A stretch of DNA of 64,000 nucleotides from Candidatus Rifleibacteriota bacterium (GTDB lineage: Bacteria > Muiribacteriota > Ozemobacteria > Ozemobacterales > Ozemobacteraceae), in assembly GCA_012517355.1 (NCBI GenBank), contig JAAYVD010000112.1, positions 1-64,000 of the forward strand, given 5' to 3'. This document shows positions 1,786 through 47,216 of the stretch, in pieces. The notes under the pieces are model-generated. The model did no database searches and was not told the origin of the DNA. It saw only the letters and a program-made list of their open reading frames with translations. A program made the position numbers and the translations under genes. Within the stretch, counting starts at the first letter, position 1. Each line of letters starts with the position of its first letter.

Positions 1786-4137
1786 ATGTCAGCCAAGAAC
1801 CTTCTGATCGTCGAGTCGCCAGGAAAGATCAAGACCCTGTCGAAATTCCTGGGCAAGGATTTCGTCGTCGAAGCCAGCAAAGGACACGTCATCGACCTGA
1901 TGGAGACCCGCCTGGGCGTCGATTCCGAGAACGGGTTCATCCCCGCCTTCCACCTGGTGAAGGACCGCGAGGACGTCATCCACCGCCTGCGCCAGGTGGC
2001 CCGCCACGCCGAGCGCATCTACCTCGCCCCCGACCCCGACCGCGAGGGGGAGGCGATCAGCTGGCACCTGGCCAACGTGCTCAACATCGACCCGATGAGC
2101 CCCTGCCGGGTGACCTTCAACTCGATCACCCGCGACGACGTGTTGCAGGCCCTCGAGCATCCCCGCTGCATCAACCTCAACCTGGTCAACGCCCAGCAGT
2201 CGCGCCGCATCCTCGACCGCCTGGTCGGCTACCGCCTCTCCCCCCTGCTGTGGAAGAAGGTCAGCCTGGGCCTGTCGGCCGGCCGCGTCCAGTCGGTCGC
2301 GGTGCTGTTCATCTGCGACCGCGAGCGCGAAATCCTCGCCTTCACCCCCGAGGAGTTCTGGACGATCACCACCCAGATCAAGGCCGGGCCGAAGAAAACC
2401 TTCACCGCCCGCCTGGTCAAGAGCCACGGCAAGAAGACCCAGCTCGGCGACGCCGCCGCCTCCCAGCGGGCCACCGACGAGATCCAGGCCGCCGACCTGC
2501 GCGTGGCCGCGGTCACCAAGAAGGCCCGCAAGCAGTCGCCCCCCCCGCCCTTCATCACCAGCACCCTCCAGCAGGAGGCCGCCCAGCGGTTCTCGTTCAC
2601 CTCGAAGCGCACCATGTCGATCGCCCAGCGCCTCTACGAAGGCGTCGAGATCGGCTCGGAAGGCCCGGTCGGCCTGATCACCTACATGCGGACCGACTCG
2701 GTGCGCATCGCCCCGGAAGGGCTGGATGACGCGCGCGACTACATCCGCCAGACCTTCGAGCCGGCCTACTGCCTGGCCCAGCCCCGGCATTTCAAGACCA
2801 AGAAGGGGGCCCAGGACGCCCACGAGGCGATCCGGCCCACCTCGGTCGAACGCACTCCCGAACGCATGGCCGCCTTCCTGAAGCCCGAGGCCCTCAAGCT
2901 CTACACCCTGATCTGGAAACGCTTCGTCGCCACCCAGATGGCCGAGGCCCAGTTCGAGGTGGTGACCATCGACCTCGCCGCCGGGCCGCACGTGCTGCAG
3001 GCCACCGGCACCACCCAGTTGTTCGACGGGTTCACCCGCCTCTACTCGGAAGCCCACAGCGACGAGGAACCCGCCCCCGACGCCGGGGTGGAGCCGGCCG
3101 AGGACGGCCGCCAGCGCCTGCCCGAGCTGACCGAGGGCGCCGGCGTCGAGCTCGCCGGTCTCGACCAGAAGCAGAACTTCACCGCCCCGCCGCCGCGCTA
3201 CTCCGAGTCGAGCCTGATCAAGACCCTCGAGAAGGAAGGCATCGGCCGCCCGAGCACCTACGCCACCATCATCGAGACGATCCAGCAGCGCGGCTACGTG
3301 AAGAAGGTGGAAGGCCGCTTCCGGCCGTCCGATGCCGCCTTCCTCGCCCTGCAGGTGCTGACCGGCAGTTTCGGCGACATCATCAACCCCGGGTTCACCG
3401 CCCGCATGGAAGGCGAGCTCGACGACGTCGAGGACGGCAAGAAGCAGTGGGTCCAGATCCTGCAGGAGTTCTACGACCCGTTCCTCTCCGACCTGAAGAA
3501 GGTCGATTCCGAGATGCAGCGGGCCCAGGTGCTGTCCGACTGCGTCTGCGAGAAGTGCGGCAAGCCGATGCTGGTCAAGCTGGGCCGCACCGGGAAGTTC
3601 CTGGCCTGCTCCGGATACCCGGAATGCCGGTCGACCGAGAACATCCCCGAAGACCTGCTGCTGTTCGCGGGCGGCAGCCCGACCGGCCCGGTCGCCCTGC
3701 GCAAGATCCTCGACGAGTACAAGGAGAAGGCGGGCCCCGCCGTCGAGGCCACCGACCAGGTCTGCGAGACCTGCGGGGCGCCGATGGTCATCCGCAACGG
3801 CCGGTTCGGCAAGTTCATGGCCTGTTCGAAATACCCCGAATGCAAGACCACCCGGCGCATCGTGCAGGAGGCCGGCGTCGCCTGCCCCCTGCCCGGCTGC
3901 GGCGGCCAGGTCGTCATCAAGAAGTCGCGCAACCGGCGCGTGTTCTACGGCTGCTCGAAGTACCCCGAATGCCGGCTGACCACCTGGGAAAAGCCGACCG
4001 GCGAGCTCTGCCCCGAATGCCAGGCCCCCCTGGTCTGGCATACCACCAAGAAACTGGGGCAGCACGCGCGGTGCTCGGGCAAGACCTGCAAGTTCCGCCG
4101 GGCGGCGGAAGGAGGTCCGGGTGCCAAAGAAGAATAA
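1786..4137 (+). CDS. topA: DNA topoisomerase I (type IA)
   Basis: Relaxes negatively supercoiled DNA by single-strand passage. The 783-residue protein opens with a TOPRIM domain (LIVESPGK near residue 5, acidic DPDREGE near residue 85). The catalytic tyrosine is Y300 in the TYMRTDS motif. The C-terminus carries four zinc ribbons from about residue 583 onward (three CxxC...CSxYPEC units and a last, diverged one). The start ATG at 1786 follows CAGGAG. The gene overlaps trmFO by 17 bases. All catalytic motifs are intact. Confidence 0.97.
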   Translation: MSAKNLLIVESPGKIKTLSKFLGKDFVVEASKGHVIDLMETRLGVDSENGFIPAFHLVKDREDVIHRLRQVARHAERIYLAPDPDREGEAISWHLANVLNIDPMSPCRVTFNSITRDDVLQALEHPRCINLNLVNAQQSRRILDRLVGYRLSPLLWKKVSLGLSAGRVQSVAVLFICDREREILAFTPEEFWTITTQIKAGPKKTFTARLVKSHGKKTQLGDAAASQRATDEIQAADLRVAAVTKKARKQSPPPPFITSTLQQEAAQRFSFTSKRTMSIAQRLYEGVEIGSEGPVGLITYMRTDSVRIAPEGLDDARDYIRQTFEPAYCLAQPRHFKTKKGAQDAHEAIRPTSVERTPERMAAFLKPEALKLYTLIWKRFVATQMAEAQFEVVTIDLAAGPHVLQATGTTQLFDGFTRLYSEAHSDEEPAPDAGVEPAEDGRQRLPELTEGAGVELAGLDQKQNFTAPPPRYSESSLIKTLEKEGIGRPSTYATIIETIQQRGYVKKVEGRFRPSDAAFLALQVLTGSFGDIINPGFTARMEGELDDVEDGKKQWVQILQEFYDPFLSDLKKVDSEMQRAQVLSDCVCEKCGKPMLVKLGRTGKFLACSGYPECRSTENIPEDLLLFAGGSPTGPVALRKILDEYKEKAGPAVEATDQVCETCGAPMVIRNGRFGKFMACSKYPECKTTRRIVQEAGVACPLPGCGGQVVIKKSRNRRVFYGCSKYPECRLTTWEKPTGELCPECQAPLVWHTTKKLGQHARCSGKTCKFRRAAEGGPGAKEE

Positions 4138-5449: not shown

Positions 5450-5896
5450 GCGACCGCCCCTCCACACCCACCGCGGGGCAGCCCCGCCCAACGCCAGAGG
5501 TTCCCCTCCCAGGCCCTGCCATGACGGCGGGGCCTGGTCGCCTTTCCCCCCGAAGGGGCTCCGTCCGTGGAAAGGCGCGACGGGGCACGACAACCGCCAG
5601 GGAAGGAGGGGAAGCCCGGAATCGAAATCCGGAGGAAAGGGGAAGGGGGGGAAGCGGGAGAAGGGGCGAGGGTGGAAAGGCCGATCTGGCGATGGCTCAC
5701 CAGCCAGGCGGGGAGGAGCAGAAAAGACCGGGATGGAAGGGACAAACCCCGTGCGTTGAGCGAGCCGGGCGTTTCGCCCCACCATCCCGACGAAGGGGCC
5801 CTTCCGACGTCGTGTCGGGTTCGAAGGAGGGGAAAAAGAACCCCCGGGGCGAGGCTCGGTCTTCCTCGCACCCGGGGTTGGGCAAACCGGAGAGGG
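5450..5896. other. Intergenic stretch with hairpins and one dispersed-repeat copy
   Basis: No convincing gene lies here between the convergent trmFO and the giant lipoprotein gene. A perfect hairpin GCGGGGC-A-GCCCCGC at 5472-5486 is 23 bases after the trmFO stop. A nested inverted repeat GCCTTTCC...GGAAAGGC spans 5540-5576. A copy of the dispersed palindromic repeat occupies 5742-5819. Short frames on both strands lack family resemblance or ribosome-binding sites. Confidence 0.6.
5742..5819 (+). repeat. Dispersed palindromic repeat, copy A (diverged 5' half)
   Basis: The 3' half matches the family consensus closely: GGGCGTTTCGCC, then AAGGGGCCCTTCCGAC and the terminal hairpin CCGACG-TCG-TGTCGG. 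The 5' arm is degenerate. It lies in non-coding DNA. Confidence 0.7.
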
Positions 5897-19829: not shown

Positions 19830-21944
19830 TCAGGGGGCCGCGGGGGCCGTGGCAGCGTCTGCGGCTGCGTCGCGAGGGGCCACCGGGGCGGTGGCAGAGG
19901 CTGGGGCGGCCGGGACGGCCGCCGAAGCGGTGGGCAGGGCGGGCGGGCCGACGAAGGTGATGAGGCCGGCGGGCGGCGGGGAGATCCGTTCGTGGCGCTT
20001 CAGCCAGGCCAGGAGGGCATCGCGCATCAGGAATCCGGTCTCCTGGCGGCGGGCCGCTTCCCGAAAGAGTTCGCGGCCGTTCTGGTTGCCGTCGGCCAGG
20101 TAGTTGATGGTGACGACCCGATAGTCCTTCGCCGCTTCCAGCGGCCGGCCGCCGACGCGGATGTCGCGCACCTCGCGCCGGTCGAGATCGTAGGTGGCAG
20201 TGAGGCCGGCGTATTGGTAGCCGGTGATCTGCCCGTAGTTGGCGCAGATGAACTGCAGCATCGCCTGCACCGCCGCCCCGTTCATCGTGAGGACGACCAG
20301 CGTGTTGTCGAAGGGCAGCACCTGGAACACCCGGCCCATGGTGACCGGGCCGGCAGGAATGGCGTCGCGGATCGAGCCCGAATTCATGATGGCCAGGTCG
20401 GCCCCGGTGAATTCACGCATCGTCTCGCAGATGAAGGTGCCCAGGGGCAGGTCGCGCTCGTGCTTCTCCACCTCGGGGTAGGGCAGGTCCTCCAGGCAGG
20501 TGCCGACGATCTGGGTGGTCTGGGCGCGGATCCGTTCCTCGTATTTCGAAACCAGGCGGGCCACGGGGGAGTCGAGCGGCACCGTGACCGAGGCGTCGAT
20601 CGGGACCAGGCGGCCGGACCAGGCCTGCAGACCGGCGGGGCCGAACCCCAGGTCGAGCCGGCCAAGGTAGTAGCCCCATTTGAACGCCTGCACCACCAGG
20701 GTACCCACGGGGCGGGAGCCGCCGGCCGGTCGCGGCCCGCCCACCACCACGGTGGGTTCGGCCTTCACCAGCACCGGGCTCTCGAGATAGGTGTTGGTGT
20801 GACCGCCGATGATCACGTCGAGGCCGGGCAGGTCGGCGGCCAACTGCTGGTCGCCCTCGTAGCCGGAATGGGAAAGGAGGACGACGAGGTCGGCGGACGG
20901 CCGCAGCCTGGCCAGCAAAGGGGCCAGAGCCTCCCGGGGTTCGACGAACTCGTACCCCTGCCGGCGGTTCTCGGGGATGACCGACCAGGCCTCGCTGCCG
21001 ATGCAGCCCAGGACGGCGATCTGGCGGCCGGCCCGCTCGAACAGGCGGTAGGTGGGGAAGACCGGCCGGCGGGTGTCGGCGTGCAGGATGTTGGCGCACA
21101 GCAGGGGGAACCCGGCAGTCTTGTACTTTTCTATCAGATGTGTCATGCCATCGTCGAGTTCGTGGTTGCCCATGGTGGTGGCATCGTAGCCCATGAGAGC
21201 GAATGCGGCGAGGTCGACCTCCCCCTTGAAGAAGGTGTAGAACGAGGTGCCCTGGAAGATGTCGCCCCCGTCGAACAGCAGCACGTGGGGCTCGGCGGCG
21301 CGGATGGCGCGGATGACCTCGGCGCGGCGGGCGATGCCGCCCAGGTCCTTGCCGAAGGCGGGCATGTCGAAGGGAAGGAGGTGGGCGTGGGTGTCGTTGG
21401 TGTAGAGGATGGTCAGGGTGGCGACGTCAGGCCGCGGCACCGCGGTGGGGCTGGCCACGGCGGCGGCGGAACCCGGCCCCCTGGCGGTGCTGCCGGGCGG
21501 CGGGGCGGGCAGGGGCGGCGGCACCGGGACACCGGGCGCGGCGGGGACCGCTTCCGGGCCGGCGGAAGAGCCGGTCGGCCCTCTGGCGAGGCGCGTAGCG
21601 GGCAGTCCGGGCCGGCCCTCGCGGAGGCCTGGGGCTCTCTCCGACCACACATCGGTCGGGGCGGGGAAGGGAATGCCGGAGGCCGCGACGACAGCAGGAG
21701 GAATGGCGGCTCCCGCGAGGGGAGGGGCGGGCTGATCGGCGGCCAGCAGGCCGGCCAGGAGGACGAGGGGCAGGAGGGTCGTCAGGAGGATGGGCAGGGC
21801 GGGTCGCGCCACCCGGCGGGGGCGGCCGCCGGGGAACCCACTGGTGATGAGCGGAACGGACGTTTCGCGCCGGCCTTCGCGGCGGCCAAGGGGCCCTTCC
21901 GACATCGTGCCGGTCGGGGGGGCAGACGGGCGGCGGCACACCAT
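19830..21944 (-). CDS. 5'-nucleotidase / UshA-like metallophosphoesterase, with two repeat-derived inserts near the N-terminus
   Basis: 704 residues. The calcineurin-like domain has ILYTNDTHAHL, FDGGDIFQG, GNHELDDG and GGHTNTYL, all metal-ligand motifs. The C-terminal nucleotidase domain has MNSGSIRD and FDNTLVVL. It hydrolyses nucleotides or UDP-sugars in the periplasm. The membrane-export segment (PILLTTLLPLVLLAGLLAA) begins only after ~48 residues, because a dispersed palindromic repeat is inserted just after the start codon (residues ~9-32). A second, diverged copy encodes residues ~95-123. The ATG at 21944 has GGAGGTGA upstream, overlapping the end of the S9 peptidase gene. The C-terminus is an Ala/Pro-rich tail. 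Confidence 0.88.
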   Translation of the reverse strand: MVCRRPSAPPTGTMSEGPLGRREGRRETSVPLITSGFPGGRPRRVARPALPILLTTLLPLVLLAGLLAADQPAPPLAGAAIPPAVVAASGIPFPAPTDVWSERAPGLREGRPGLPATRLARGPTGSSAGPEAVPAAPGVPVPPPLPAPPPGSTARGPGSAAAVASPTAVPRPDVATLTILYTNDTHAHLLPFDMPAFGKDLGGIARRAEVIRAIRAAEPHVLLFDGGDIFQGTSFYTFFKGEVDLAAFALMGYDATTMGNHELDDGMTHLIEKYKTAGFPLLCANILHADTRRPVFPTYRLFERAGRQIAVLGCIGSEAWSVIPENRRQGYEFVEPREALAPLLARLRPSADLVVLLSHSGYEGDQQLAADLPGLDVIIGGHTNTYLESPVLVKAEPTVVVGGPRPAGGSRPVGTLVVQAFKWGYYLGRLDLGFGPAGLQAWSGRLVPIDASVTVPLDSPVARLVSKYEERIRAQTTQIVGTCLEDLPYPEVEKHERDLPLGTFICETMREFTGADLAIMNSGSIRDAIPAGPVTMGRVFQVLPFDNTLVVLTMNGAAVQAMLQFICANYGQITGYQYAGLTATYDLDRREVRDIRVGGRPLEAAKDYRVVTINYLADGNQNGRELFREAARRQETGFLMRDALLAWLKRHERISPPPAGLITFVGPPALPTASAAVPAAPASATAPVAPRDAAADAATAPAAP
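21577..21660 (+). repeat. Dispersed palindromic repeat, copy C (diverged, inside CDS)
   Basis: Matches copy B most closely: GGCCGGCCCTCGCGGAGGCC and CTCTCCGACCACACATCGGTCGG correspond to the consensus middle and 3' hairpin. It lies in frame in the minus-strand nucleotidase gene and encodes a peptide aligning with that of copy B (PTDVWSERAPGLREGRPG). Confidence 0.55.
21849..21917 (+). repeat. Dispersed palindromic repeat, copy B (inside CDS)
   Basis: Core CGTTTCGCGCCGGCCTTCGC, then AAGGGGCCCTTCCGACATCG matches the consensus. It occupies codons right after the start of the minus-strand nucleotidase gene, encoding PTGTMSEGPLGRREGRRE, upstream of the hydrophobic export segment. Confidence 0.8.
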
Positions 21945-36037: not shown

Positions 36038-37027
36038 GTGACCGGCCCGATCGACTTCGACGAGATGCTGGCGAAGGTCGCCCCCGACAACCCGAATCGT
36101 TCCTTTCTGCTCAAGAGCCTGATCGAGATCCGCGCGGGCCAGGACGACCAGGCCCTGATGACCAGGCTGATGACCGGCCTCGTGATGAAATACGCCGAGA
36201 GCGAGCGGCAGCTGAACCGGCTCAACGCCGAACTGCGCGAGAAACAGGAGCACCTCGACGCCGACCTCAAGGCCGCCGCGGTCATCCAGACGGCGCTGCT
36301 GCCCAAGCCCCTGCCCGCCGCCTCGAACGTGCGCGCCGCCTGGAAGTTCGTTCCCTGCCAGAGCATCGGCGGCGACGTGTTCCTGCTCACGCCGCTGGGC
36401 AAGCGGTATCTGATGGTGGCCGTCGTCGACATCAGCGGTCACGGGGTACCCTCGGCCATGGTGACCGTCTCGGTCTGCCAGTTCCTGCAGCCCCAGGCGG
36501 GAACGGTCTTCCAGCCCGGGGCCGGCCCCGACGGCGCGGTGGTGCCACCCGGCCAGGTGCTGGCCTCGCTCGACCGCGAGTTTCCCTATTTCCGTTTCAA
36601 GAAGACCTTTTCGATCTTCTACGGCGTGCTCGACCGCGTCACCGGCCGGTTCACCTTCGCCAACGGCGGGCACCCGCAACCCTTCCTGCAGACCCCCGAC
36701 GGCGCCCTCACCACCCTCGAGGAGCACGGCCCCATCATCGGCATGGGCCTGGGCTCGACCTTCCCGGAAGGGTCGCTCACCCTCTCCCCCGGCAGCCGCC
36801 TGACCTTCTACTCCGACGGCCTGACCGAATGCCGCAACCCCTCAGGGGAGCTGTTCGGTGACGACCGGGTGCGCGACCTGCTCGCCGCGCACCACGCCCT
36901 GCCCCTCCCCGACCTCGCCGCCGCGATCCATGCCGGGGCCAGCAGATTCGTGGCGGGAGCGGGTTTTCCCGATGACTTCACCCTCGTCCACCTGGAGTTC
37001 GCCGGCCCGCCCGCCTCCCCCGCTTGA
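36038..37027 (+). CDS. RsbU-like PP2C/SpoIIE serine phosphatase
   Basis: 329 residues. Residues ~1-85 are helical and may form a dimerisation stalk. The rest is a SpoIIE-type PP2C domain: SIGGDVFLL and VVDISGHG give the first metal ligands, YSDGLTE and DDFTLVHLEF the last. It should dephosphorylate the STAS protein encoded three genes upstream. There is no sensory domain of its own, so input may come from the neighbouring metallo-beta-lactamase-fold protein (inference). The start is a GTG two bases after the previous stop. Confidence 0.93.
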   Translation: MTGPIDFDEMLAKVAPDNPNRSFLLKSLIEIRAGQDDQALMTRLMTGLVMKYAESERQLNRLNAELREKQEHLDADLKAAAVIQTALLPKPLPAASNVRAAWKFVPCQSIGGDVFLLTPLGKRYLMVAVVDISGHGVPSAMVTVSVCQFLQPQAGTVFQPGAGPDGAVVPPGQVLASLDREFPYFRFKKTFSIFYGVLDRVTGRFTFANGGHPQPFLQTPDGALTTLEEHGPIIGMGLGSTFPEGSLTLSPGSRLTFYSDGLTECRNPSGELFGDDRVRDLLAAHHALPLPDLAAAIHAGASRFVAGAGFPDDFTLVHLEFAGPPASPA

Positions 37028-39909
37028 GGGACGGCGACCAGCAGCACGTCCCCGCCATGGTCACCGCCACGCCAGCGGCATCGCCGGGGATGTTTCCTCA
37101 GACGGCCTTCCCCCACCCCTCCGGCACGGTTCGGCAGTTCGTCGCCGCCCGGTGGGAGTTGCAGGGAACCGGTGGGAAACCGCCCCAACACCCGCGAGAT
37201 CCGGGCCGCCCGGCGACCCGGGTCAGTGGCCCCGGCCGGCCGTGGCCGGAAGCGGGTTTATGGCGTGCGGGCTGGCTGGCCTTGTCACTGGTGTGCCTGA
37301 TCCTGCTGGCCGACCCCGCCCTCGTCGCGGCTGCCGAAGGCCGGGGAACGGAGGGGGACCAACTGCAGACCGGTCCCTGGTGGGGCATCGGGCCGCTGGC
37401 GGCGACCGCCTCGCCGGCCGGTCTGCTCTCTTCAGCGGGCAGGCCAGACCCGGGGCGTGATCATCCCGGCCGGGACGGCCCGACGCGCTGGCGCGAGGTT
37501 CCCGCCTGGGCCGACCCCGGGGAGATCCACGACGTGGCCGGAGAACTGGCCACGGGCAACGGCCCCGCCTCGGCCGCGGCTTTCCAGGTTCTCTCCAGCC
37601 CGGCCGGCGGCGAGGCCTGGTGGTATGTCAGCGCGGACGACCTGTTCGAAGGCTGGGTGAACGGGGAACGGGTGGCCTGGCAGGACCGGCCCCTGGACTG
37701 CCGGCCCCGGCGACGGGCGATCCGGATCCGCTTGCGCCCGGGGGCCAACACGGTCTTCCTGGCCCTGGCGAACGTCGATGGGCGTTTCTGCTTCGCCAGC
37801 ACGTTCGAGGCCATCCCCGACCTCCCCGGGGAGGTGGTCCGGCTGCGGCGGACCATCGGGCGGTGGCCCCGCGTGTTCGACCGCGAGGCCGCCCTGGCAC
37901 TGCTCGGGTATCTGCGGGGAACCCCTCTGCCGGAGTCGGCCTTTCCCTATTACGATTCGGAGTTCATGCGGTCGATGACCGAACCCGGCGAAGAGATCGG
38001 GCGGCTGCAGGACGACCTGGACCAGCCGGGGACCGGGGCCCTGCGTCCGTCGAGGTTGTTCCGGCTGGCGGAGGTCATTCGCGACGCCGGGTTGGCGGAA
38101 GAGGCGTCGACCTGGCTGCTCCACCTTCTGGCCGGGCGATTCGCGGCCTCTCTCGCGGGCGTGGCCGGGGGGACGGTCCCAGGCAGGGATCCGGCGGGGA
38201 AGGCCGTGGGGGCGGACGGCCCCTCGGCGGGGCGCGAAACGGATGATTCGCGCCGCCATCCGTGGGGGCAAAGGGGCCCTTCCGACATCGGGCCGGTCGA
38301 CCCCCTGGTTGGGCGTGAGCGGGGTGGCACGCCCCGCCAACCGGGGCGCGGAGGGGACCCGGACGAGATGGGGCCGGACCGGACGGCGGCGGATTTCGGC
38401 CCGGTCGTACAGCAGACGCCCTGGCTGCTGGCGGGACCGGGGGCCGACCTGACGCGGGCGGTGGCCGCCAGTCTGCTGGGGCCGGACGGCACCGTCGACT
38501 GCCGCCGCCCCCTGCCGGGTCTCGCCGGCCAGAGGTCAGACTCCCTTCCCGACCCTCGACCGGATCGGCCCCTTCGCGATGCCCGAAGCGGGCGTTTCGC
38601 GCCGCCATCCGTGGCGACCAAGGGGCCCTTCCGACATCGTGTCGGTCGGCCCCTTTGCGGTGCGCGAAACTGGCGTTTCGCGCCGCCATCCGTGGCGGCA
38701 AAGGGGCCCTTCCGACATCGTGTCGGTCGGGACGAGGGAACGGAGCCGGGGGCGGGCGCCGAACGCGCCCGGGGTGCGGATTCCTGGCGGTTGGTGGCCT
38801 CCTGGACGACGGAGACGGGGCCCCACGACATCGCCGACGTGGTAGCCGGGCCGACCGACGGGCAGGCGGTCCTGCTCACGCGGACGCTCTTCGCCTCCGC
38901 CGAGGTGGACGCCTGGGTCTTCCTGGCCGCCGACGACTGGCTGGACGTCTGGCTCAACGGCCGCCACCTGTTCGCCCCCAACGGGCGGCCCAGCGCCTTC
39001 CTCCCCCGCCAGCAGGTGGTGAAGGTGCGTTTGCGGCGGGGGGTGAACCCTTTGCTCCTGCGGGTCGAGAACCATGCGGGGGCCTGCGCCTTCGCCCTGG
39101 AGGTGCATCCGCTGGCCGACTGGCCGGCGCGGAGCGCTCGGCTGGTCCGGCTCATCCGGTCGTTTCCGCCCGCCTTCGACCCGGACCTGACCGCCGGGGT
39201 GCTCCCCTTTCTCGCCTGGCCGCGTCTTCCCCGTCGCCTGGCGGACGCCTATCGCGAGCTGACCTTCCACCCGATCGCCGACCCCGAGGCGGAGATCCGG
39301 TTCCTGCAGCAGGCGCTGCGCACCGCGACCGAGCCGATAGCCCTCGATGCCGCCCGGTTCCGCCTGGCCGAACTCTGCGGGCAACTCGGACTGGGTGGGA
39401 TCCTGGGGCGGCACCTGCGGTCCCAGCGGGACCGGGCCGGACTCGACGGGCCCCGCCTGTGGCGCGGGGCGCTGGCGGTGTTCCACTCCGGCCGGTTCGC
39501 CGAGGGGATCGGGGAGCTCCAGCGGGTGGCGGACCTGTTCCCGGAACTGGGGGCCGCCCGCCTGGGCCTGGCCGAGGTGCTCTCCTGGAGGGCCTGGCAG
39601 ACGCTGGATTACCGGGTGCGGGACCAGGCCTGGGAGGCCTGGCAGCGGGTGGACCGGGCGGACCGCGCCCGACCGGCCGCCCTGGCCGCCCAGGCCGGCC
39701 TGTGGTACCTGTTCGCCCGGAAGGACACGGCCAACCGGTGGTTCGAAGCCGCCCTGCGGGCTGACCCGCGGAACCTGTCCGCCTGGCTGACCCGGTGGGA
39801 GGTCCGCTCACCCTTTCCCGACCAGGCGGCGGAAGGGGCCTATCTGCGGGAGTTCGCGGTCTGGGACGACCGGACCGCCCGCGAATGGTACCGGGAGATC
39901 GAACCGTGA
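37024..39909 (+). CDS. Secreted, internally duplicated beta-sandwich/helical repeat protein carrying three palindromic-repeat inserts
   Basis: Up to 961 residues. The start is uncertain: TTG at 37024 overlaps the phosphatase stop; ATGs at 37057 and 37090 are alternatives. An export segment lies at residues ~79-103 (WLALSLVCLILLADPALVAA). Two copies of one module follow. Each has a beta-sandwich with the pattern ...DLFEGWVNG... / ...DWLDVWLNG..., then VR(I/V)RLR.G.N. Each then has a ~100-residue helical part (RLxRxI...PxxFD ... EIxxLQ ... RLAE). The C-terminus (~815-961) is TPR-like. Dispersed repeats insert at residues ~399-426 and ~515-569 between the modules. Its stop overlaps the cyclase GTG, so it is probably the periplasmic partner of the cyclase. 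Confidence 0.75.
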   Translation: MRDGDQQHVPAMVTATPAASPGMFPQTAFPHPSGTVRQFVAARWELQGTGGKPPQHPRDPGRPATRVSGPGRPWPEAGLWRAGWLALSLVCLILLADPALVAAAEGRGTEGDQLQTGPWWGIGPLAATASPAGLLSSAGRPDPGRDHPGRDGPTRWREVPAWADPGEIHDVAGELATGNGPASAAAFQVLSSPAGGEAWWYVSADDLFEGWVNGERVAWQDRPLDCRPRRRAIRIRLRPGANTVFLALANVDGRFCFASTFEAIPDLPGEVVRLRRTIGRWPRVFDREAALALLGYLRGTPLPESAFPYYDSEFMRSMTEPGEEIGRLQDDLDQPGTGALRPSRLFRLAEVIRDAGLAEEASTWLLHLLAGRFAASLAGVAGGTVPGRDPAGKAVGADGPSAGRETDDSRRHPWGQRGPSDIGPVDPLVGRERGGTPRQPGRGGDPDEMGPDRTAADFGPVVQQTPWLLAGPGADLTRAVAASLLGPDGTVDCRRPLPGLAGQRSDSLPDPRPDRPLRDARSGRFAPPSVATKGPFRHRVGRPLCGARNWRFAPPSVAAKGPFRHRVGRDEGTEPGAGAERARGADSWRLVASWTTETGPHDIADVVAGPTDGQAVLLTRTLFASAEVDAWVFLAADDWLDVWLNGRHLFAPNGRPSAFLPRQQVVKVRLRRGVNPLLLRVENHAGACAFALEVHPLADWPARSARLVRLIRSFPPAFDPDLTAGVLPFLAWPRLPRRLADAYRELTFHPIADPEAEIRFLQQALRTATEPIALDAARFRLAELCGQLGLGGILGRHLRSQRDRAGLDGPRLWRGALAVFHSGRFAEGIGELQRVADLFPELGAARLGLAEVLSWRAWQTLDYRVRDQAWEAWQRVDRADRARPAALAAQAGLWYLFARKDTANRWFEAALRADPRNLSAWLTRWEVRSPFPDQAAEGAYLREFAVWDDRTAREWYREIEP
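38219..38299 (+). repeat. Dispersed palindromic repeat, copy D (inside CDS, in frame)
   Basis: About 81 bases. GCGCGAAACGGATGATTCGC then GCCGCCATCCGTGG and AAAGGGGCCCTTCCGACATC match the consensus. Read in the host gene's frame it gives SRRHPWGQRGPSDIG. Confidence 0.85.
38567..38649 (+). repeat. Dispersed palindromic repeat, copy E (inside CDS, first of a tandem pair)
   Basis: Begins GGCCCCTTCGCGATGCCCGA and ends with the perfect hairpin CCGACA-TCG-TGTCGG. Copy F follows head-to-tail with a period of 81 bases. Confidence 0.92.
38648..38730 (+). repeat. Dispersed palindromic repeat, copy F (best-structured copy)
   Basis: GGCCCCTTTGC (38648-38658) pairs perfectly with GCAAAGGGGCC (38698-38708). 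Inside are stem GCGCGAAAC/GTTTCGCGC with loop TGGC (38662-38683) and stem CGCCA/TGGCG with loop TCCG (38684-38697). A 3' hairpin CCGACA-TCG-TGTCGG follows at 38712-38726. The whole is a three-way junction plus hairpin. Confidence 0.95.
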
Positions 39910-42900
39910 CCCGCGCGGCTCCCCCGGGCACCGCCCCGGTCGTTCCCCCGGTCGCTTCCCCGGTCGCTTCCCCGGTCGTGTCGCCTTCCGCTTCCCCGGA
40001 CACGCGCCTGGGCGTTTCCCCGGCCGACTCCCCGGCCCCCCTCCAAGCGCCCACCGCTGTGGACGCCCCCGCCGCGTTCCCGGCGGACCTGTCCCCGCTC
40101 CCGACCGACCCGTCGTCGGCCGGCGCCCCGGGCGGCCCGGGGCGGGGGAACGGGCCGCCGGTTGCGGACCGGGCCCAGGGGTCCCCGCCCCGCGGGCCGC
40201 GCGCCGCCTGGATCTCACTGGTCATGAACTGGGGGGTCCCGTTCCTGCTGAGTCTGCTGCCGCTGGTGGTCCTGCACCTCGCGGCCGGAGAGGAGCAGGC
40301 CAGGCGCGGAGCGGATGCGCGCCGGGAGCGGCGGGAACGGGTCCGCCTCCAGGCCGACCATCTGCGCCGGGCCTCGTCCTTCCCGTTCTGGGCCGAGCGG
40401 GCCGCCCGCCTGCTCAAGCGGGGCGCCCTGGCCGGGCTGGCCGGGACCCAAAGCCGGGGGCAGAACCCCGGCCACGCCGCCGCCCCGCCCCACACCGGGG
40501 ACGTCTCCGGAATCGGCCCACCCCCAGCCAAGGGCGAAGCGGCCGTGCCGATCCGTCATCCGTGGCCCCCACCAGGAGATCCTTCAGACATCGGGTCGGG
40601 TGGGACGGGCCATTTCGGCGGACCGCGGTCGCCCCCTTCCCCAACCGGAACCGCCGCCACTCCCGACCCCTCATCGGCCGAAATCGGGAGGCCGGTCGGG
40701 GTGCCGTTTTCCGGCGGGCGGCCAGGCCGGTTCCTCGTGCCCACCCCCGCCCCGGGAGGCGGGCCGGCAACCAACCGCGCCGGGGTGGCGGAAGCTCTGG
40801 CCAGGGGCCTGGGGACGGCCCTGCGTCGCCTGCAGAGATCGGAACCCCGGCCAGGGGCGGCCACGCCGTTTCGCGGCAGGCGGGGCGGCCAGGGCATCCT
40901 GCCGACCTCTGAGCGGTCGAACCTGGCGGGGTGCCAGGTATGGGCCGTTGCCTTTCCCACCGGGAATCCGGCCGAGGGGGTGGAACCCTGCCGGGCCCCT
41001 CCCCTCCGCCAGGATTTCTCCGCCCTGATGACCGGCCTGTTGCAGGACATCGGCCGGCAGCAGGCGATCGAGGCGGAGGAGGGAAAGGCGGCGCGCCACG
41101 CCGGGGGGGGCAAGAATGACGAGAGCGGTGGGGGAAGCGAGAGGCCGGCCGGGCCGTTCGACGCCACCCGGCTGCGGAGGCTGGAGGCAGGCTTCGGTGA
41201 GGGGTTGTCCGCCGACCTGTTCACCGGCAGCCACCGCGGAACCGGCTTTCCCGTGCTGTTCCGCGGAATTCCCCACATCATGGTCTGGGACCTCGTCTTC
41301 TTCCGGGAACGGACGGTCGGGGCCTTCCTGGTGCTGCTGCCGCTGCCCGACGAGGCCGGCCACGCCGCGCTGCAGTTGACCCTGCGGTACTGGCCGAAAG
41401 GCGGGTTCCGGCCGGCGTTTCTGCCCATGCCGACCGAGCGGCGGGGGATCCTGCCTCCCCCCCTGCTCCACCCCGACCTGGTCCGGGCCCCCGTCCTGGC
41501 CGACATCGAGCGGCTTCGTCGCCAGATGCGGATCTGGCAGCCGGCCGGCACCCGGTTCGAGGGCACCCGGGTGGGGCTGCTGGCCCCCTTCACCGGCCGG
41601 CTGGTCCGGTTGCCGGCCGCCGCGGGATGGTGGGGCATGGTCACCCCCCTCGATCCGCTGACGGGACACCTGGGACTGCTGGTCGGACGCTTTCCCGACC
41701 TGCCCCCCTCCGCCCTGGATCTGTTCCGCGGGATGGCCGACATGGCCTGGATCTTCGTCTGGATCATGGTCGCCATCCGGGCCGCCCTGGTGGGGACGCG
41801 CCCGGCCGGCGTCCGGCGTCAGGCCACCCTGTGGCTGCTCGGCGTCACCGGCATGCCGGTGGTGCTGGGGATCATGGTCGGCGTCCAGCTGAACGGAGAC
41901 CTGCGTTCCAACCGGCTCGAGCAGCTCGAACGCGACCTGGAACGGGCGATGGGCGACCTGGAGACCGGCGCCAACCGGCTCAACGACCGCATCGTCCAGC
42001 AGTGCAAGGAGCGGTTCCATGAGGGGGGGTTCCGGGCGGCCCTGCGGCAGGCCATCGCCAACCCAGCCGCCCGGGAAGGGTTCCTGCGCGACCTGGCCGC
42101 GGGCTTCCGGCGGCACGGGCTGCCCATCTCGGGCCTCCGGGTGATGGGACGGGACGGCCAGGCCATGGAATCCTTCGCGCCCTGGCTGCGGCAATTGTCC
42201 ATCCGGCAGCTGCAGGCAAGCCTGCAGGATGCCTGGGACCTGTATCTCGCCGGGCCCGATGGGGGCCGGAAAAGGCCGACCACCACCCTCGCCAGGTGGC
42301 AGCAGAACGTCTTTGCCGTCAAGGGGGCCGAGGAACAGCCGCTCGCCTGGCAGTCGGGCAACCGCAAGTTCTTCCTCTGGCGGATGATCATACAGGAGAA
42401 GGGCCGGCCGTTCTGCCAGGTGGCGGTGGTCTGGAGCCACGAGAAGCTGTACCGGGCCTACCTCGAGCGGGCGGTGCAGGGACCGGGGCTGTTCTCCGGC
42501 CGGACCGACCTCTCCCTGTCGGTCTATCTGCCGCAGGGGGACGACCTCGAGGAGGTTGGTGCCTCCGCCAATCTGGTGGCCGGGCGCGAGGATCTGCGGC
42601 GAGTGGCCCGGGCAGCGGTGCGGGCGAAGATGCGCCGGATCACGGAGGATGCCCTGACGGTGGGTTTCCCGAGCGAGCGCCTGCCGGGCTACGTCTTCCT
42701 GGGCCAGGCGTCGCTCGCGCCCCTGCGGGCGGAGCTGTGGCGGGAATGGCTCGGCATCGGCATCGTCACCCTCGGGCTGTTCGCCCTCGTGCTCGCGGCG
42801 GCGCGGCTGCTGGGGTTCCGGCTGGCCGCGCCGGTGGTGCGCATGACCGCGGAACTGCGGCGGGTGGCCGCCGGAGACTACGCGGCCCGGGTCGGCGACG

Positions 42901-45900
42901 ACCGCCGGGACGAGCTGGGACAGGCCGGCCGGGCGCTGGACCGCATGACCGGCTGGCTGGCCGAGCGGCAGGAGATGAGCCGGTTCGTCTCCTCCCAGGT
43001 GCTGGACGTGGTGGCCGCCGGGGACTACCGGGGGGCCATGGCCGGCACCCAGCGCGAGGTGGCGATCCTGATCTCGGACATCCGGTCGTTCACCACCCTG
43101 TCGGAGGAGCATCCGGCCCGGGATATCTTCGCCCTGGTGAACGGGCACATGGAGGCCATGACCCGCGCCATCCAGGCGGAAGGCGGGATGATCGACCGGT
43201 TCGTCGGGGACGCCGTGCAGGCGGTCTTCTACGCGGCCGAGGCCGGAACGCCGGGGGTGGGCGGCCCCGCCGACCGCGCGATCCGGGCGGCCCGGGCGAT
43301 GCGCAAAGCGCATCTGGCCAGGATCGAGGCCCGCCGGCGGGAAGGGTTGTTCCCCTACGAGATCGGCATCGGCATCGAGCAGGGAACGGTGGTGGCCGGC
43401 GTCATGGGCGACGGGCAGGCCCGGCTGGACTTCACGGTGCTGGGAGAGCCGGTACAGGCCGCGGCCGAACTGGAAGCCGGCTCGAAGCACGGCACCGCCA
43501 CGAAGATCATCGTCTCCGACCTGGTCAGGCAGACCGTTGGCGAGAGTGTCCCGTGCCGCCGCCTGCCCGACGGCCACCCCGGCTGGGAACTCGCTTCGCT
43601 CGAGGAGGGCGCTCCCCCCGCCTCCCCCGCCTCCCCCGCCGTCCCCCTTCCCGATCCCGCCCCCATCACGCCAGCCCGGCCTCCCCGCCTCCCCCGCCCT
43701 GATCCCCCCACCTTCCCATCCGCCCACCACCGCACCTCCCACCTTCCCTCCCTCGCAAGGCCATCATCTCCCCAACCCGCCACGCTCCCCGCGCCTCACC
43801 CCCCGCCTCCCCACCTCGCCGCCTCCCCCTTTCCCTCCTACGGCGGCCTGCTTCCCCTGCTGGTTCTGTGGCTGGTGCCCGCCGGCCTCCTCTTTCTCGG
43901 GGCGGCGGCCCTGCGACAGGCGGGAATCCGCCAGGCGATCGGCGAGGCGAGGGACCAGGTGCGGGAACGCCTCGGCCGGCTGGAGGGGGAGATGCGGCCG
44001 GAAACCCTGGCGGCAAGGCTGCTCGCCGGAATCGTCATCGGGGCCGGCCACCCTCGCCGGGGAACGCCGGCCGGCCCTCTGAACCCGGAGGAAGCCAACC
44101 GCCTCGGACGGGCGTTGGCCAGCGCCAACGCGAAATCTGCCGGCGCGGCGACGACGGCCAGGCCGGGGAGGCCGTCATCCGGCCGCTTTTTCGTCCTCTC
44201 CGCCCCCGCCGACATCGATCCGGGATCGGCGTGGGGGACCGAATACATGCCCAGGATCCGGCCCGCCCAGGTGCGGCTCCTGTTCCAACGCGCCCGGGGC
44301 GACTTCCCCCTGAGCCTCGACGAGGTCCGCCGATTCGCCACGATCCTCCTCATGATGGAGATCGACCCCCTGTTCACCCCCAATCGCTCCTATTTCCGCC
44401 TGTCCGACTGGTTCTACCGGTGGTTCCAGCGCTTCTTCGTCGGGCCTCGCGGGGGAGCCATCGGCCACCACGGGTTCATCCGCAACGCCCTGCTGTCCCG
44501 CGGCAACCTGCTGCCGATGCGCTTTTGCGAAAGCGACTGGCTGATGTTCTGGCTGCCGGTCAGGCGGCAGCCCGGTGCCGGTGATGGCGGAAACCGGACC
44601 GCCCAGGAGGGGCCGGGAACGGACCGGGGACTCCCGAGAACCGGCGGCACTGGCCTCTCAGCCCGTTCAAGCCGGGATGAGGGGGATCCTGACGGGGACG
44701 GGCCCCGCCCGGAGGAAGCCCGCCAGGGGGGCATCAGCCAGGCCACGGTCATCGGAAGCGGATCGCCCGGGGCAATCCCCGCCGGCACCCCGCCAGGGCC
44801 GTACTCCCCGCCAGCCGGGGACCGGGCGGCTGCCGCGGAGGGGCCGGTGGCGGGGCTGGTATTGGCTTTCCTGCCCGGCAAGGGGCTGGCACCCGAGGCC
44901 GGCTACCGATTCCTGGCCCAGGACCTGGCCCGCCAGGGGTTTCCCGCCGCGATCGCCTGGAAGGCCGGTCGGAGACGCCGCCTCGTCCGCACGGGGGCCT
45001 TCCGGAAAGCAGGGCTGTCCGCACAAGAACCGGGCGACGCACCATTCACGCTCGAGGAGCGGGCGGGGTGGGTGGTCGGGTCGCAGGTGTCGGGGGGGCT
45101 CCGCCCCGCCCGGGTGTTCCTGGCCCGGGATTGGCACCGGCACCTGCCGTGGTCGGCACACCTGGGGACAGCGGGGATCCTGGCCGCCGGGGGTTGGCTG
45201 CTGCTCGGGGGCTGGACGGTCTGGCGGCTGGGCCGTGGCGAACGCGGGGCCCCGGCCTCGTTGCGGGGCCTGCTGATGGGAACCTTCGCCCTGGTGGTGG
45301 TTCCCACCCTGGCCGTCGGGTTCTTCGGGGTCGAGCGGTCGCTGCTGGAGCGGGCCACCCGGCTGCGGGCCGACCGGGCCCGCGACCTGACCGACCTCCT
45401 GGCGGCGGTCGACCGCAGCCAGGACCTGGCCCTCACCTTCGCCTGCAACCTTGTGGCGACCCAGCTCGACCGGCCGGAGTTCCTGGCCGACCTGGCCCGG
45501 TTCGAGAAAGGATGGCCACCACCCGACCGCCCCGATGCCCCGCCTCCGATGCGCTCCCTCCTGGTGGCCTGCCAGTTCCTGGGGCTGTGGCCGCGGGCCG
45601 CCGAACTGGTGTCGGTCACCGGCCTGACCGGCGGCAGCGGGCACGACCAGCGGTTTTTGGAAGCCCTGCGGTGGTTGTGGAACCGCAACCTGTCCGCCCG
45701 GCACGCCGCGGCGGGGGCCGACCTTCCCGTCTCGCAGCGGCGCGCGAACCTGGTGGTGGGGACCCAGGTGGAGGAGTTCGGAACGATCCTCCGCAGCCTG
45801 ATGCCTCCCGCGGGTCTCGCGGCCTGGATGAGCGCGCCCCGCGCGGTGGTGTCGGTCAGCTCCTCTCTGGAGGAGCCCCAGTTCTTCTCGACCCACCACC

Positions 45901-47216
45901 TGCGCCGGGACGGCATCCCCACCTGGATCGCCGAGGTACAGTTCTCCCAGGGGCCTCTCCTGCGGCTCGCCCTCGAAGACTGGGACCGGTATCTGGCCCT
46001 GGCCCCCCACCCCGGATGGCGGATCGGCGTCTCCAAGCGGACGTTTCCCGGATGGCGGCTGGTCTCCCCCTTCGTATCGACCGACTGGGAACCGGGTCCG
46101 AAACCGGCCGACCCAGGCTTCTACCGGCAGACCCCGACCGTTCGGGGCGAGGAACCCCGAACGACCCTGCTCTGCCGGATGGCCGCCGAGGGCGGGCGGC
46201 CCGCCATCGTCCTTCCCGAGAGACGGGCGACCGGTCGGCTGTTCGCCGCCACGCCGGGTGGGGGGCCCGGCAACCTGCTGTTCTACGGCTCCCTGCCGGC
46301 GGCGGCCATCTTCGACGAGGCCGAAACCCAGGCCGCCGGCCAGCGCGGGCTCCTGCTGGCGCTGGCCGTCCTGGCCGCCCTGCTGGCCGCCGGCGTGGCC
46401 GAGGCCTTCCTGCAGCCGCTGCTCGCCCTGGCCGCGGCCGCCCGCCGCCTGATGGGGCGCGAGTTCACCGCCCGCGTGCCCCAGGACCGGGACGACGAGT
46501 TCGGCCACCTGGCCACCGCCTTCAACGAGATGGCGGCCGGGGTCGAACAGGGGCGGCGGCTCCGGCGGTTCGTCTCCGACTCGGTCCGCGTCGCGGCCGG
46601 GAACCGCGACCGCGCCGCCGCCGCCCGGGCCGGTGAGCACCGGGAGGCGGTCGTCCTGTTCGCCGGCCTCGGAGGGTTCAAGCCCCTGCTGCACACCGTG
46701 CCGCCCACCGCACTGGTCGCCGACCTCAACCGGTTCCTGGCGGGCGCGGCGGCCGCGGTGCGGGCCGAGGGCGGCGAGATCGACAAGTTCATCGGCGAAA
46801 AGGTGCTGGCCGTCTTCCACCCCGACCGCTTCGGGTCGGCCACCGCCGCCCTGGCCGCCGCCCTGCGCGCGGCGACCCGTCTGGCCGAAGACACCCGCGC
46901 CCTGCCGGCCTGGCGCGACCACCCGGTAGGCATGGGCCTGGTGGCGGGGAAGGTCCTGGCCGGCATCCTGGGCACGGCCGAGGTGCGCCTGGAATACACC
47001 GTCCTCGGCGATACCGTCAATCTCGCCGCCCGACTGTGCGACCTCGCGCTCCGGGAGGGCGGCGGCCTGGCCGTCGAGCAGGAGTCGCTGGCGCGGGCGG
47101 ACGCCCTGGCCGACCCCCGGTTCCGACGGCTGGGCGGGATCGCCCTCAAGGGCAAGACCCGCACCGTCGACTGCTGGCTGGCCCCGTCCCTCGGCCGGCC
47201 GGCCGGAACCAGGTGA
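39906..47216 (+). CDS. Two-headed transmembrane class III adenylate cyclase with complementary C1/C2 domains
   Basis: 2436 residues from a GTG overlapping the previous stop (GTGA). Two halves share one plan: TM, large outer domain, TM-TM, outer domain, TM, HAMP, cyclase. TM segments lie at about 102-125, 608-632, 639-665, 949-972 and 1315-1337, 1752-1775, 1789-1810, 2149-2170. Cyclase 1 (~1050-1200) has metal ligands D1058 and D1102 but Q1184 and E1188 where Asn/Arg should stabilise the transition state, and R1098 for the purine Lys. Cyclase 2 (~2245-2400) has G2254 and E2298 in place of the aspartates but keeps K2294, T2365, N2372 and R2376. One composite active site for ATP is inferred. The N-terminus and inter-half linker are Pro-rich. 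Confidence 0.88.
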   Translation: MTRAAPPGTAPVVPPVASPVASPVVSPSASPDTRLGVSPADSPAPLQAPTAVDAPAAFPADLSPLPTDPSSAGAPGGPGRGNGPPVADRAQGSPPRGPRAAWISLVMNWGVPFLLSLLPLVVLHLAAGEEQARRGADARRERRERVRLQADHLRRASSFPFWAERAARLLKRGALAGLAGTQSRGQNPGHAAAPPHTGDVSGIGPPPAKGEAAVPIRHPWPPPGDPSDIGSGGTGHFGGPRSPPSPTGTAATPDPSSAEIGRPVGVPFSGGRPGRFLVPTPAPGGGPATNRAGVAEALARGLGTALRRLQRSEPRPGAATPFRGRRGGQGILPTSERSNLAGCQVWAVAFPTGNPAEGVEPCRAPPLRQDFSALMTGLLQDIGRQQAIEAEEGKAARHAGGGKNDESGGGSERPAGPFDATRLRRLEAGFGEGLSADLFTGSHRGTGFPVLFRGIPHIMVWDLVFFRERTVGAFLVLLPLPDEAGHAALQLTLRYWPKGGFRPAFLPMPTERRGILPPPLLHPDLVRAPVLADIERLRRQMRIWQPAGTRFEGTRVGLLAPFTGRLVRLPAAAGWWGMVTPLDPLTGHLGLLVGRFPDLPPSALDLFRGMADMAWIFVWIMVAIRAALVGTRPAGVRRQATLWLLGVTGMPVVLGIMVGVQLNGDLRSNRLEQLERDLERAMGDLETGANRLNDRIVQQCKERFHEGGFRAALRQAIANPAAREGFLRDLAAGFRRHGLPISGLRVMGRDGQAMESFAPWLRQLSIRQLQASLQDAWDLYLAGPDGGRKRPTTTLARWQQNVFAVKGAEEQPLAWQSGNRKFFLWRMIIQEKGRPFCQVAVVWSHEKLYRAYLERAVQGPGLFSGRTDLSLSVYLPQGDDLEEVGASANLVAGREDLRRVARAAVRAKMRRITEDALTVGFPSERLPGYVFLGQASLAPLRAELWREWLGIGIVTLGLFALVLAAARLLGFRLAAPVVRMTAELRRVAAGDYAARVGDDRRDELGQAGRALDRMTGWLAERQEMSRFVSSQVLDVVAAGDYRGAMAGTQREVAILISDIRSFTTLSEEHPARDIFALVNGHMEAMTRAIQAEGGMIDRFVGDAVQAVFYAAEAGTPGVGGPADRAIRAARAMRKAHLARIEARRREGLFPYEIGIGIEQGTVVAGVMGDGQARLDFTVLGEPVQAAAELEAGSKHGTATKIIVSDLVRQTVGESVPCRRLPDGHPGWELASLEEGAPPASPASPAVPLPDPAPITPARPPRLPRPDPPTFPSAHHRTSHLPSLARPSSPQPATLPAPHPPPPHLAASPFPSYGGLLPLLVLWLVPAGLLFLGAAALRQAGIRQAIGEARDQVRERLGRLEGEMRPETLAARLLAGIVIGAGHPRRGTPAGPLNPEEANRLGRALASANAKSAGAATTARPGRPSSGRFFVLSAPADIDPGSAWGTEYMPRIRPAQVRLLFQRARGDFPLSLDEVRRFATILLMMEIDPLFTPNRSYFRLSDWFYRWFQRFFVGPRGGAIGHHGFIRNALLSRGNLLPMRFCESDWLMFWLPVRRQPGAGDGGNRTAQEGPGTDRGLPRTGGTGLSARSSRDEGDPDGDGPRPEEARQGGISQATVIGSGSPGAIPAGTPPGPYSPPAGDRAAAAEGPVAGLVLAFLPGKGLAPEAGYRFLAQDLARQGFPAAIAWKAGRRRRLVRTGAFRKAGLSAQEPGDAPFTLEERAGWVVGSQVSGGLRPARVFLARDWHRHLPWSAHLGTAGILAAGGWLLLGGWTVWRLGRGERGAPASLRGLLMGTFALVVVPTLAVGFFGVERSLLERATRLRADRARDLTDLLAAVDRSQDLALTFACNLVATQLDRPEFLADLARFEKGWPPPDRPDAPPPMRSLLVACQFLGLWPRAAELVSVTGLTGGSGHDQRFLEALRWLWNRNLSARHAAAGADLPVSQRRANLVVGTQVEEFGTILRSLMPPAGLAAWMSAPRAVVSVSSSLEEPQFFSTHHLRRDGIPTWIAEVQFSQGPLLRLALEDWDRYLALAPHPGWRIGVSKRTFPGWRLVSPFVSTDWEPGPKPADPGFYRQTPTVRGEEPRTTLLCRMAAEGGRPAIVLPERRATGRLFAATPGGGPGNLLFYGSLPAAAIFDEAETQAAGQRGLLLALAVLAALLAAGVAEAFLQPLLALAAAARRLMGREFTARVPQDRDDEFGHLATAFNEMAAGVEQGRRLRRFVSDSVRVAAGNRDRAAAARAGEHREAVVLFAGLGGFKPLLHTVPPTALVADLNRFLAGAAAAVRAEGGEIDKFIGEKVLAVFHPDRFGSATAALAAALRAATRLAEDTRALPAWRDHPVGMGLVAGKVLAGILGTAEVRLEYTVLGDTVNLAARLCDLALREGGGLAVEQESLARADALADPRFRRLGGIALKGKTRTVDCWLAPSLGRPAGTR
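40516..40602 (+). repeat. Dispersed palindromic repeat, copy G (diverged, inside the cyclase CDS)
   Basis: GATCCGTCATCCGTGG and CCTTCAGACATCGGGTCGGG match the consensus; the 5' arm is degenerate. It encodes IRHPWPPPGDPSDIG, in the same frame as the peptide of copy D, in outer domain 1 of the cyclase. Confidence 0.6.

Follow-up and report, generated by a model that had tools for sequence, protein, structure and literature searches.

How can a gene take up several copies of a palindromic repeat and still be read from end to end? Palindromes that invade proteins have been described above all in Rickettsia and Wolbachia; for the Rickettsia palindromic elements (RPEs), the source is reportedly Ogata et al. 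2000. The same question is raised by a 64,000-nucleotide stretch of DNA (the window) from a bacterium of the Ozemobacteraceae, where a single open reading frame holds three 81-bp repeat units. The window is contig C8 of genome G000, an assembly of 7.11 Mb in 184 contigs. Our best reading, to which we assign a probability of about 0.8, is that the unit is a non-autonomous mobile palindrome of the MITE/REP kind, present in part of one Ozemobacteraceae genus, and that its insertions into genes add 27 codons.

Repeat copies in the window and their host genes

The copies in the window and the genes around them are as follows.

37024..39909, + strand: host open reading frame of copies D, E, and F; 961 aa from the first TTG (a later start may be the true one); without Pfam match
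37447..38073, + strand: the first of two duplicated modules in the host protein, aligning with its partner at 29% identity over 210 aa (E=4e-22)
38743..39372, + strand: the partner module in that protein, defined by the same module-module alignment
38218..38298, + strand: copy D, 81 bp; 68-71 bits; sense frame 0, peptide RHPWGQRGPSDIG
38297..38376, + strand: decayed copy in tandem after D; 12 bits, E=0.066; 169-nt direct repeat D4
38567..38647, + strand: copy E, 81 bp; 70-73 bits; sense frame 2
38648..38728, + strand: copy F, 81 bp; 81-83 bits; in exact tandem with E; frame 2; RNA fold z=-4.3
19830..21812, - strand: 5'-nucleotidase/metallophosphoesterase gene holding copy B; Pfam PF02872, PF00149
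21577..21657, + strand: copy B; 28-32 bits; antisense to the nucleotidase, in an N-terminal linker after a hydrophobic segment
21837..21915, + strand: copy C; 60 bits; lies beyond the predicted gene, probably a short way upstream of where the nucleotidase starts
39906..47216, + strand: HAMP/adenylate-guanylate cyclase gene holding copy G; PF00211, PF00672
about 40522..40599, + strand: copy G, old and weak; 27-28 bits, E=7.8e-7; sense frame 0
5746..5818, + strand: intergenic copy; 43 bits
47884..47962, + strand: intergenic copy; 45 bits
59187..59267, - strand: intergenic copy; 46 bits
61150..61206, + strand: partial intergenic copy; 26 bits
62820..62901, + strand: young intergenic copy; 66 bits

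A preliminary description of this DNA placed D, E, and F, open and in frame, between the two duplicated modules, and the unbroken frame at 37024-39909 bears this out. The units are clearly related (an nhmmer search with F recovers copy D at E=7.5e-13 and copy E at E=5.4e-15), and the G+C content by codon position identifies the same coding frame on either side of the inserts. The frames proposed for them also hold: D is read in frame 0, and E and F in frame 2 (RFAPPSVA.KGPFRH). The host protein had been called secreted on the strength of a signal-peptide-like segment seen by eye (...LALSLVCLILLADPALVAAAEG), and putatively secreted is the fitting term. An AlphaFold model from its one sequence reached a mean pLDDT of 38 and was not used.

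Pfam matches uphold the placement of G in the cyclase gene. B and C had both been assigned to the nucleotidase gene; B does lie there, and C falls upstream of the best predicted start (21812) and may be extragenic. In the antisense reading, copy C (21837-21915) has an ATG (MSEGPLG...) whose frame is that of the nucleotidase signal segment; copies located ahead of genes could be a source of start codons.

Copy number, spread, and structure of the family

Iterated profile searches of G000 retrieved 136 copies from a sample of 801 kb and 249 from one of 1.55 Mb. This density, approximately 161-170 copies per Mb of sampled sequence, extrapolates to a family of approximately 1,140-1,210 copies genome-wide. 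Some dispersed copies are 96-98% identical to each other, and neighbors in tandem are more alike than random pairs (88% versus 81%, p=0.001). The family has relatives of other lengths. The 84-bp members of one subfamily have 3 nt added between their stem and final hairpin, and a second type of 60 bp, which has its 3' tail (CACTTCCGAC.TCGTGTCGGTCGG) in common with the 81-bp type, forms mixed arrays with it. Arrays of 60-bp and 81-bp units often sit at contig ends (L034, L114, G000:C168:1-164, C29:1-85, C30:10-173); the assemblies are thus probably broken there, and the copy numbers may be underestimates. The amplified length classes, 81, 84, and 60 bp, are all multiples of three, and variants of +1, +2, or -1 occur only as scattered single copies.

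The distribution is narrow. Among the relatives searched by BLAST, only G002, of the same genus, has the element besides G000; G001, also of that genus, and all the others have no copy. The 60-bp type follows suit, being present in G000 and G002 and absent from G001. An exact scan for the shared tail across 84,980 genomes, which may omit records of the window's own genome, returned only the Candidatus Ozemobacteraceae MAG N1_Bin_METABAT__69_1; the contigs of this MAG and of G002 appear to be the same. Phages, plasmids, and viral contigs gave no match, and neither did Rfam, which is not an RPE library.

In the consensus fold, which is of the cruciform type, an outer stem (CCCCTTTGC/GCAAAGGGG, positions 3-11/51-59) encloses two hairpins and does not reach position 81; outside it lies a 3' hairpin (CCGAC..GTCGG, positions 65-79) ending in GGTC. 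Covariation in the outer stem shows that the palindrome is conserved. Across 50 non-redundant copies there are 33 double-changed Watson-Crick cells (pair 7-55 is TA in 22 copies and CG in 13; pair 9-53 is TA in 13 and GC in 12), several pairs stand above shuffled controls (z up to 3.9), and pairing is seen in 1154 of 1400 cells, a number that falls to 635 or fewer once the partner is slid. Since the peptide varies with the frame, the palindrome rather than the peptide would be what the sequence conserves.

A conserved hairpin invites a reading as transcription terminator or mRNA stabilizer, with the genic copies accidental. Good copies do fold strongly (z -3.5 to -6.2), and intergenic copies are more often closer to a gene's 3' end (64) than to its 5' end (34). 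Against this, the way copies divide among gap classes is not significantly different from each class's share of intergenic base pairs (p=0.09), orientation relative to the neighboring gene is random (27 same, 31 opposite), and G001, of the same genus, does without the element. We regard this explanation as improbable.

The ends of isolated copies are sharp. Their left flank is GG[AT][CG] and their right flank GG[GA][AT]CC, which places the insertion point at GGWS|GG for an element that runs from GGCCCC to GGTC. In 50 isolated copies we detected no target-site duplication except a weak -3/+1 match (z=2.8), and the G-rich ends could mask a duplication of 1-2 nt. Palindromic (hairpin) target sites were considered and rejected, as complementarity between flanks is no better than in mismatched pairs (p 0.73-0.82). 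Orientation shows no bias with GC skew (48/93) and so gives no support for lagging-strand insertion.

Insertions within genes

Orthologues lacking the inserts, the comparison proposed in the preliminary description, were found for an AGE-like enzyme and not for the host protein of D, E, and F, which has no detected orthologue in G001-G003; in-frame insertion is therefore proven on other genes. The AGE-like enzyme (C127:123490-125844; PF07221) carries three tandem 81-bp units at a site that spans 84-89 aa in G000 versus 4-10 aa in four orthologues from other genera. Without the three 27-aa units, 13 aa remain, and the orthologues have 14-15 aa. Judged from these alignments, the case is a precise in-frame insertion; the same protein holds a further copy at a second site. 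In L-aspartate oxidase (NadB), an 81-bp, a 60-bp, and a decayed copy lie between the FAD domain and the C-terminal domain; the corresponding linker of same-genus orthologues is short. Two copies also occupy a linker of a UbiB-like kinase.

The G002 orthologue of the UbiB-like kinase (L093, G002:C260) has long extra stretches of its own in the same linker, and one further on; they match neither profile, and another repeat type may be involved. In a kinase-like protein of G000 (L148, G000:C153:63258-64973), a linker of 81-bp and 60-bp copies is followed by diverged repeats (HRRPERQGGPSDTVS).

In the 1.55-Mb sample, 73 of the 249 copies (29%) fall in predicted genes, and 53 of these are at least 30 codons from both ends, with most genic calls depending on a home-made gene finder. 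The coding share of the same sample is 85%, and copies are thus depleted from genes. Since 80% of occurrences of the core motif GG[AT][CG]GG are in coding sequence, the supply of targets cannot explain this scarcity; selection presumably does. Genic and intergenic copies do not differ in age (p=0.57).

The copies that do reside in genes keep the frame. All 63 near-full genic copies have a net length change of 0 or +3, compared with 103 of 131 intergenic copies that are a multiple of three (Fisher p=1.1e-5); this multiple-of-three bias, which the preliminary description had proposed testing, is partly built in because a called ORF must be open. A second count, based on the coding signal in 450-bp flanks (150-bp flanks proved too insensitive), is free of this dependence on called ORFs: where both flanks are coding on one strand, ten clusters are read through in frame and two are frameshift candidates. 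Genic copies use all six frames, departing mildly from the expectation set by the target motif (p=0.007 for all loci, 0.03 for internal loci). The original claim of palindromic repeats lying in frame in the linkers of real genes, in several frames and orientations, is in this manner supported.

Could the insert-bearing genes instead be pseudogenes or mispredictions? Within the inserts the coding signal is weak, and for some N-terminal copies the true start probably lies downstream. The NadB, UbiB-like, and AGE-like proteins, however, align with intact orthologues on both sides of open inserts, and the frame-keeping of all 63 near-full copies and the excess of read-through clusters over frameshift candidates likewise speak against disabled genes. 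We consider this explanation very improbable.

The preliminary description went further and suggested that the element is selected for translatability in several frames. This part is not supported, given how common openness is by chance and how depleted the copies are from genes. The consensus has no stop in any of the six frames, a state that dinucleotide shuffling reaches with P=0.19 and that 14-17% of random genomic 81-mers share; 74% of intergenic copies are still open in all six. In our view frame-safety is what allows insertions to persist, and we do not regard it as an established adaptation. Selection could alternatively act at the level of the element itself, favoring a multiple-of-three length and freedom from stops that make it harmless in genes and spacers alike. 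The three amplified lengths are suggestive here, as are the open consensus, the persistence of openness between genes, the use of all six frames, and the youth of genic copies. Three related length classes of common descent are nevertheless weak evidence, openness comes readily by chance, and genes are depleted of copies; selection at this level is an unlikely explanation. Similarly doubtful is the stronger form, a selected element translatable in any frame or orientation that adds 27-residue steps at approximately 240 genic sites in one genome. If true, those sites would constitute a natural genome-wide experiment in protein linker insertion.

Known elements and the question of a mover

RPEs and Wolbachia palindromic elements are dispersed palindromes found in frame in unrelated conserved genes (PMC10969869, PMC2229807, PMC3767692). 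The 81-bp family resembles them in being a dispersed palindrome in frame in protein genes. It differs in length (81, 84, or 60 bp, as opposed to 105-150 bp), in its more than 1,000 copies and tandem arrays, and in its host, of a high-GC uncultured phylum. RPEs of R. conorii are reported with a CGTC terminal tetranucleotide (PMC3733652), which is absent from the element ends here. The label RPE-like, given in the preliminary description, is thus apt as an analogy and does not imply membership, the elements having been compared by description rather than by alignment.

Other palindromes offer partial parallels. GTAG/CGTC-tagged REPs reach up to thousands of copies, mostly intergenic and often near gene 3' ends; intragenic ones add 20-30 aa, and clusters 43-82 aa (PMC3733652). 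The 81-bp family shares the abundance, the mostly intergenic location, and the presence of some copies within genes. REP units, however, are 20-40 bp long and mostly form inverted dimers (PMC3733652), whereas the present unit is 81 bp, forms direct tandem arrays, and bears neither tag, GTAG being absent from the foot of the consensus stem. Correia/NEMIS and ERIC MITEs are likewise small, palindromic, and non-autonomous, and a 107-bp open-frame form of Correia/NEMIS enters ORFs, while a 155-bp form with stops does not (PMC2229807). These elements have TA ends and target-site duplications, neither of which was found for the 81-bp element.

In-frame RPEs and intragenic REPs are therefore already known, and the 81-bp family is of the same kind, with another length, other ends, and another host phylum. 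What it adds is an apparently unrelated family from an uncultured, high-GC phylum; its copies are far more numerous, there are young ones in genes, and orthologues free of the insert exist. Two questions can therefore be put to the test: whether insertions of this kind are neutral passengers, and whether frame-safety belongs to the element itself or reflects which insertions survived.

Under our preferred reading, a mobile palindrome, the element would insert 3' of GG[AT][CG] and before GG, apparently without target-site duplication, and its own end (GGTC|GG) would recreate the target. Local duplication would then build arrays with a period of 81 (60 for the sister type). As the 81/84-nt unit is usually open in six frames, a genic insertion would add 27 or 28 hydrophilic residues without truncation, and insertions would survive because each adds 27 codons. 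Purifying selection would purge most genic insertions, leaving those in linkers and loops. We infer mobility itself, single-strand (HUH-type) transposition in trans by a separate enzyme, and neutrality to the host.

IS608-like elements combine a left tetranucleotide target, a similar right-end tetranucleotide, a subterminal hairpin, and no duplication. The element matches this IS200/IS605-type pattern: GG[AT][CG]| precedes it, GGTC closes its right end, and the hairpin occupies positions 65-79. No transposase flanked by the 81-bp element was found. Reverse transcriptase loci were tested and rejected for want of an element copy, as was IS110, whose one marginal match in G000 has no copy at the locus. 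Group II intron-type reverse transcriptases occur in L156 (G000:C69) and L155 (G002:C284), with no copies nearby.

One candidate is mobilization, as a REP/REPIN-type repeat, by a RAYT-like Y1 transposase, the only one in the genome (C109:4057-4848). G000 and G002 each have one Y1_Tnp and G001 has none, which is the distribution of the element itself, and the tetranucleotide flank, terminal hairpin, right-end GGTC, and lack of visible duplication fit IS200/IS605. Y1_Tnp is, however, found in 18 of 32 relatives, while only G000 and G002 carry the element; the GTAG tag is absent; and the nearest element array is approximately 6.5 kb away on the same contig. The gene is flanked by a different palindrome, GGGGACATGATACC, and we accordingly rejected it as the element's own mover; trans-mobilization of this kind is unlikely.

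REPtrons and TIRtrons are RAYT transposases flanked by REPs or TIRs (PMC3733652), and the RAYT-like gene of G000, with repeats of its own that are not the 81-bp element, resembles a TIRtron. At this locus (L061:4057-4848, G000:C109), the inverted repeats lie near 4012 and 4948, and the motif has 5 copies in 801 kb.
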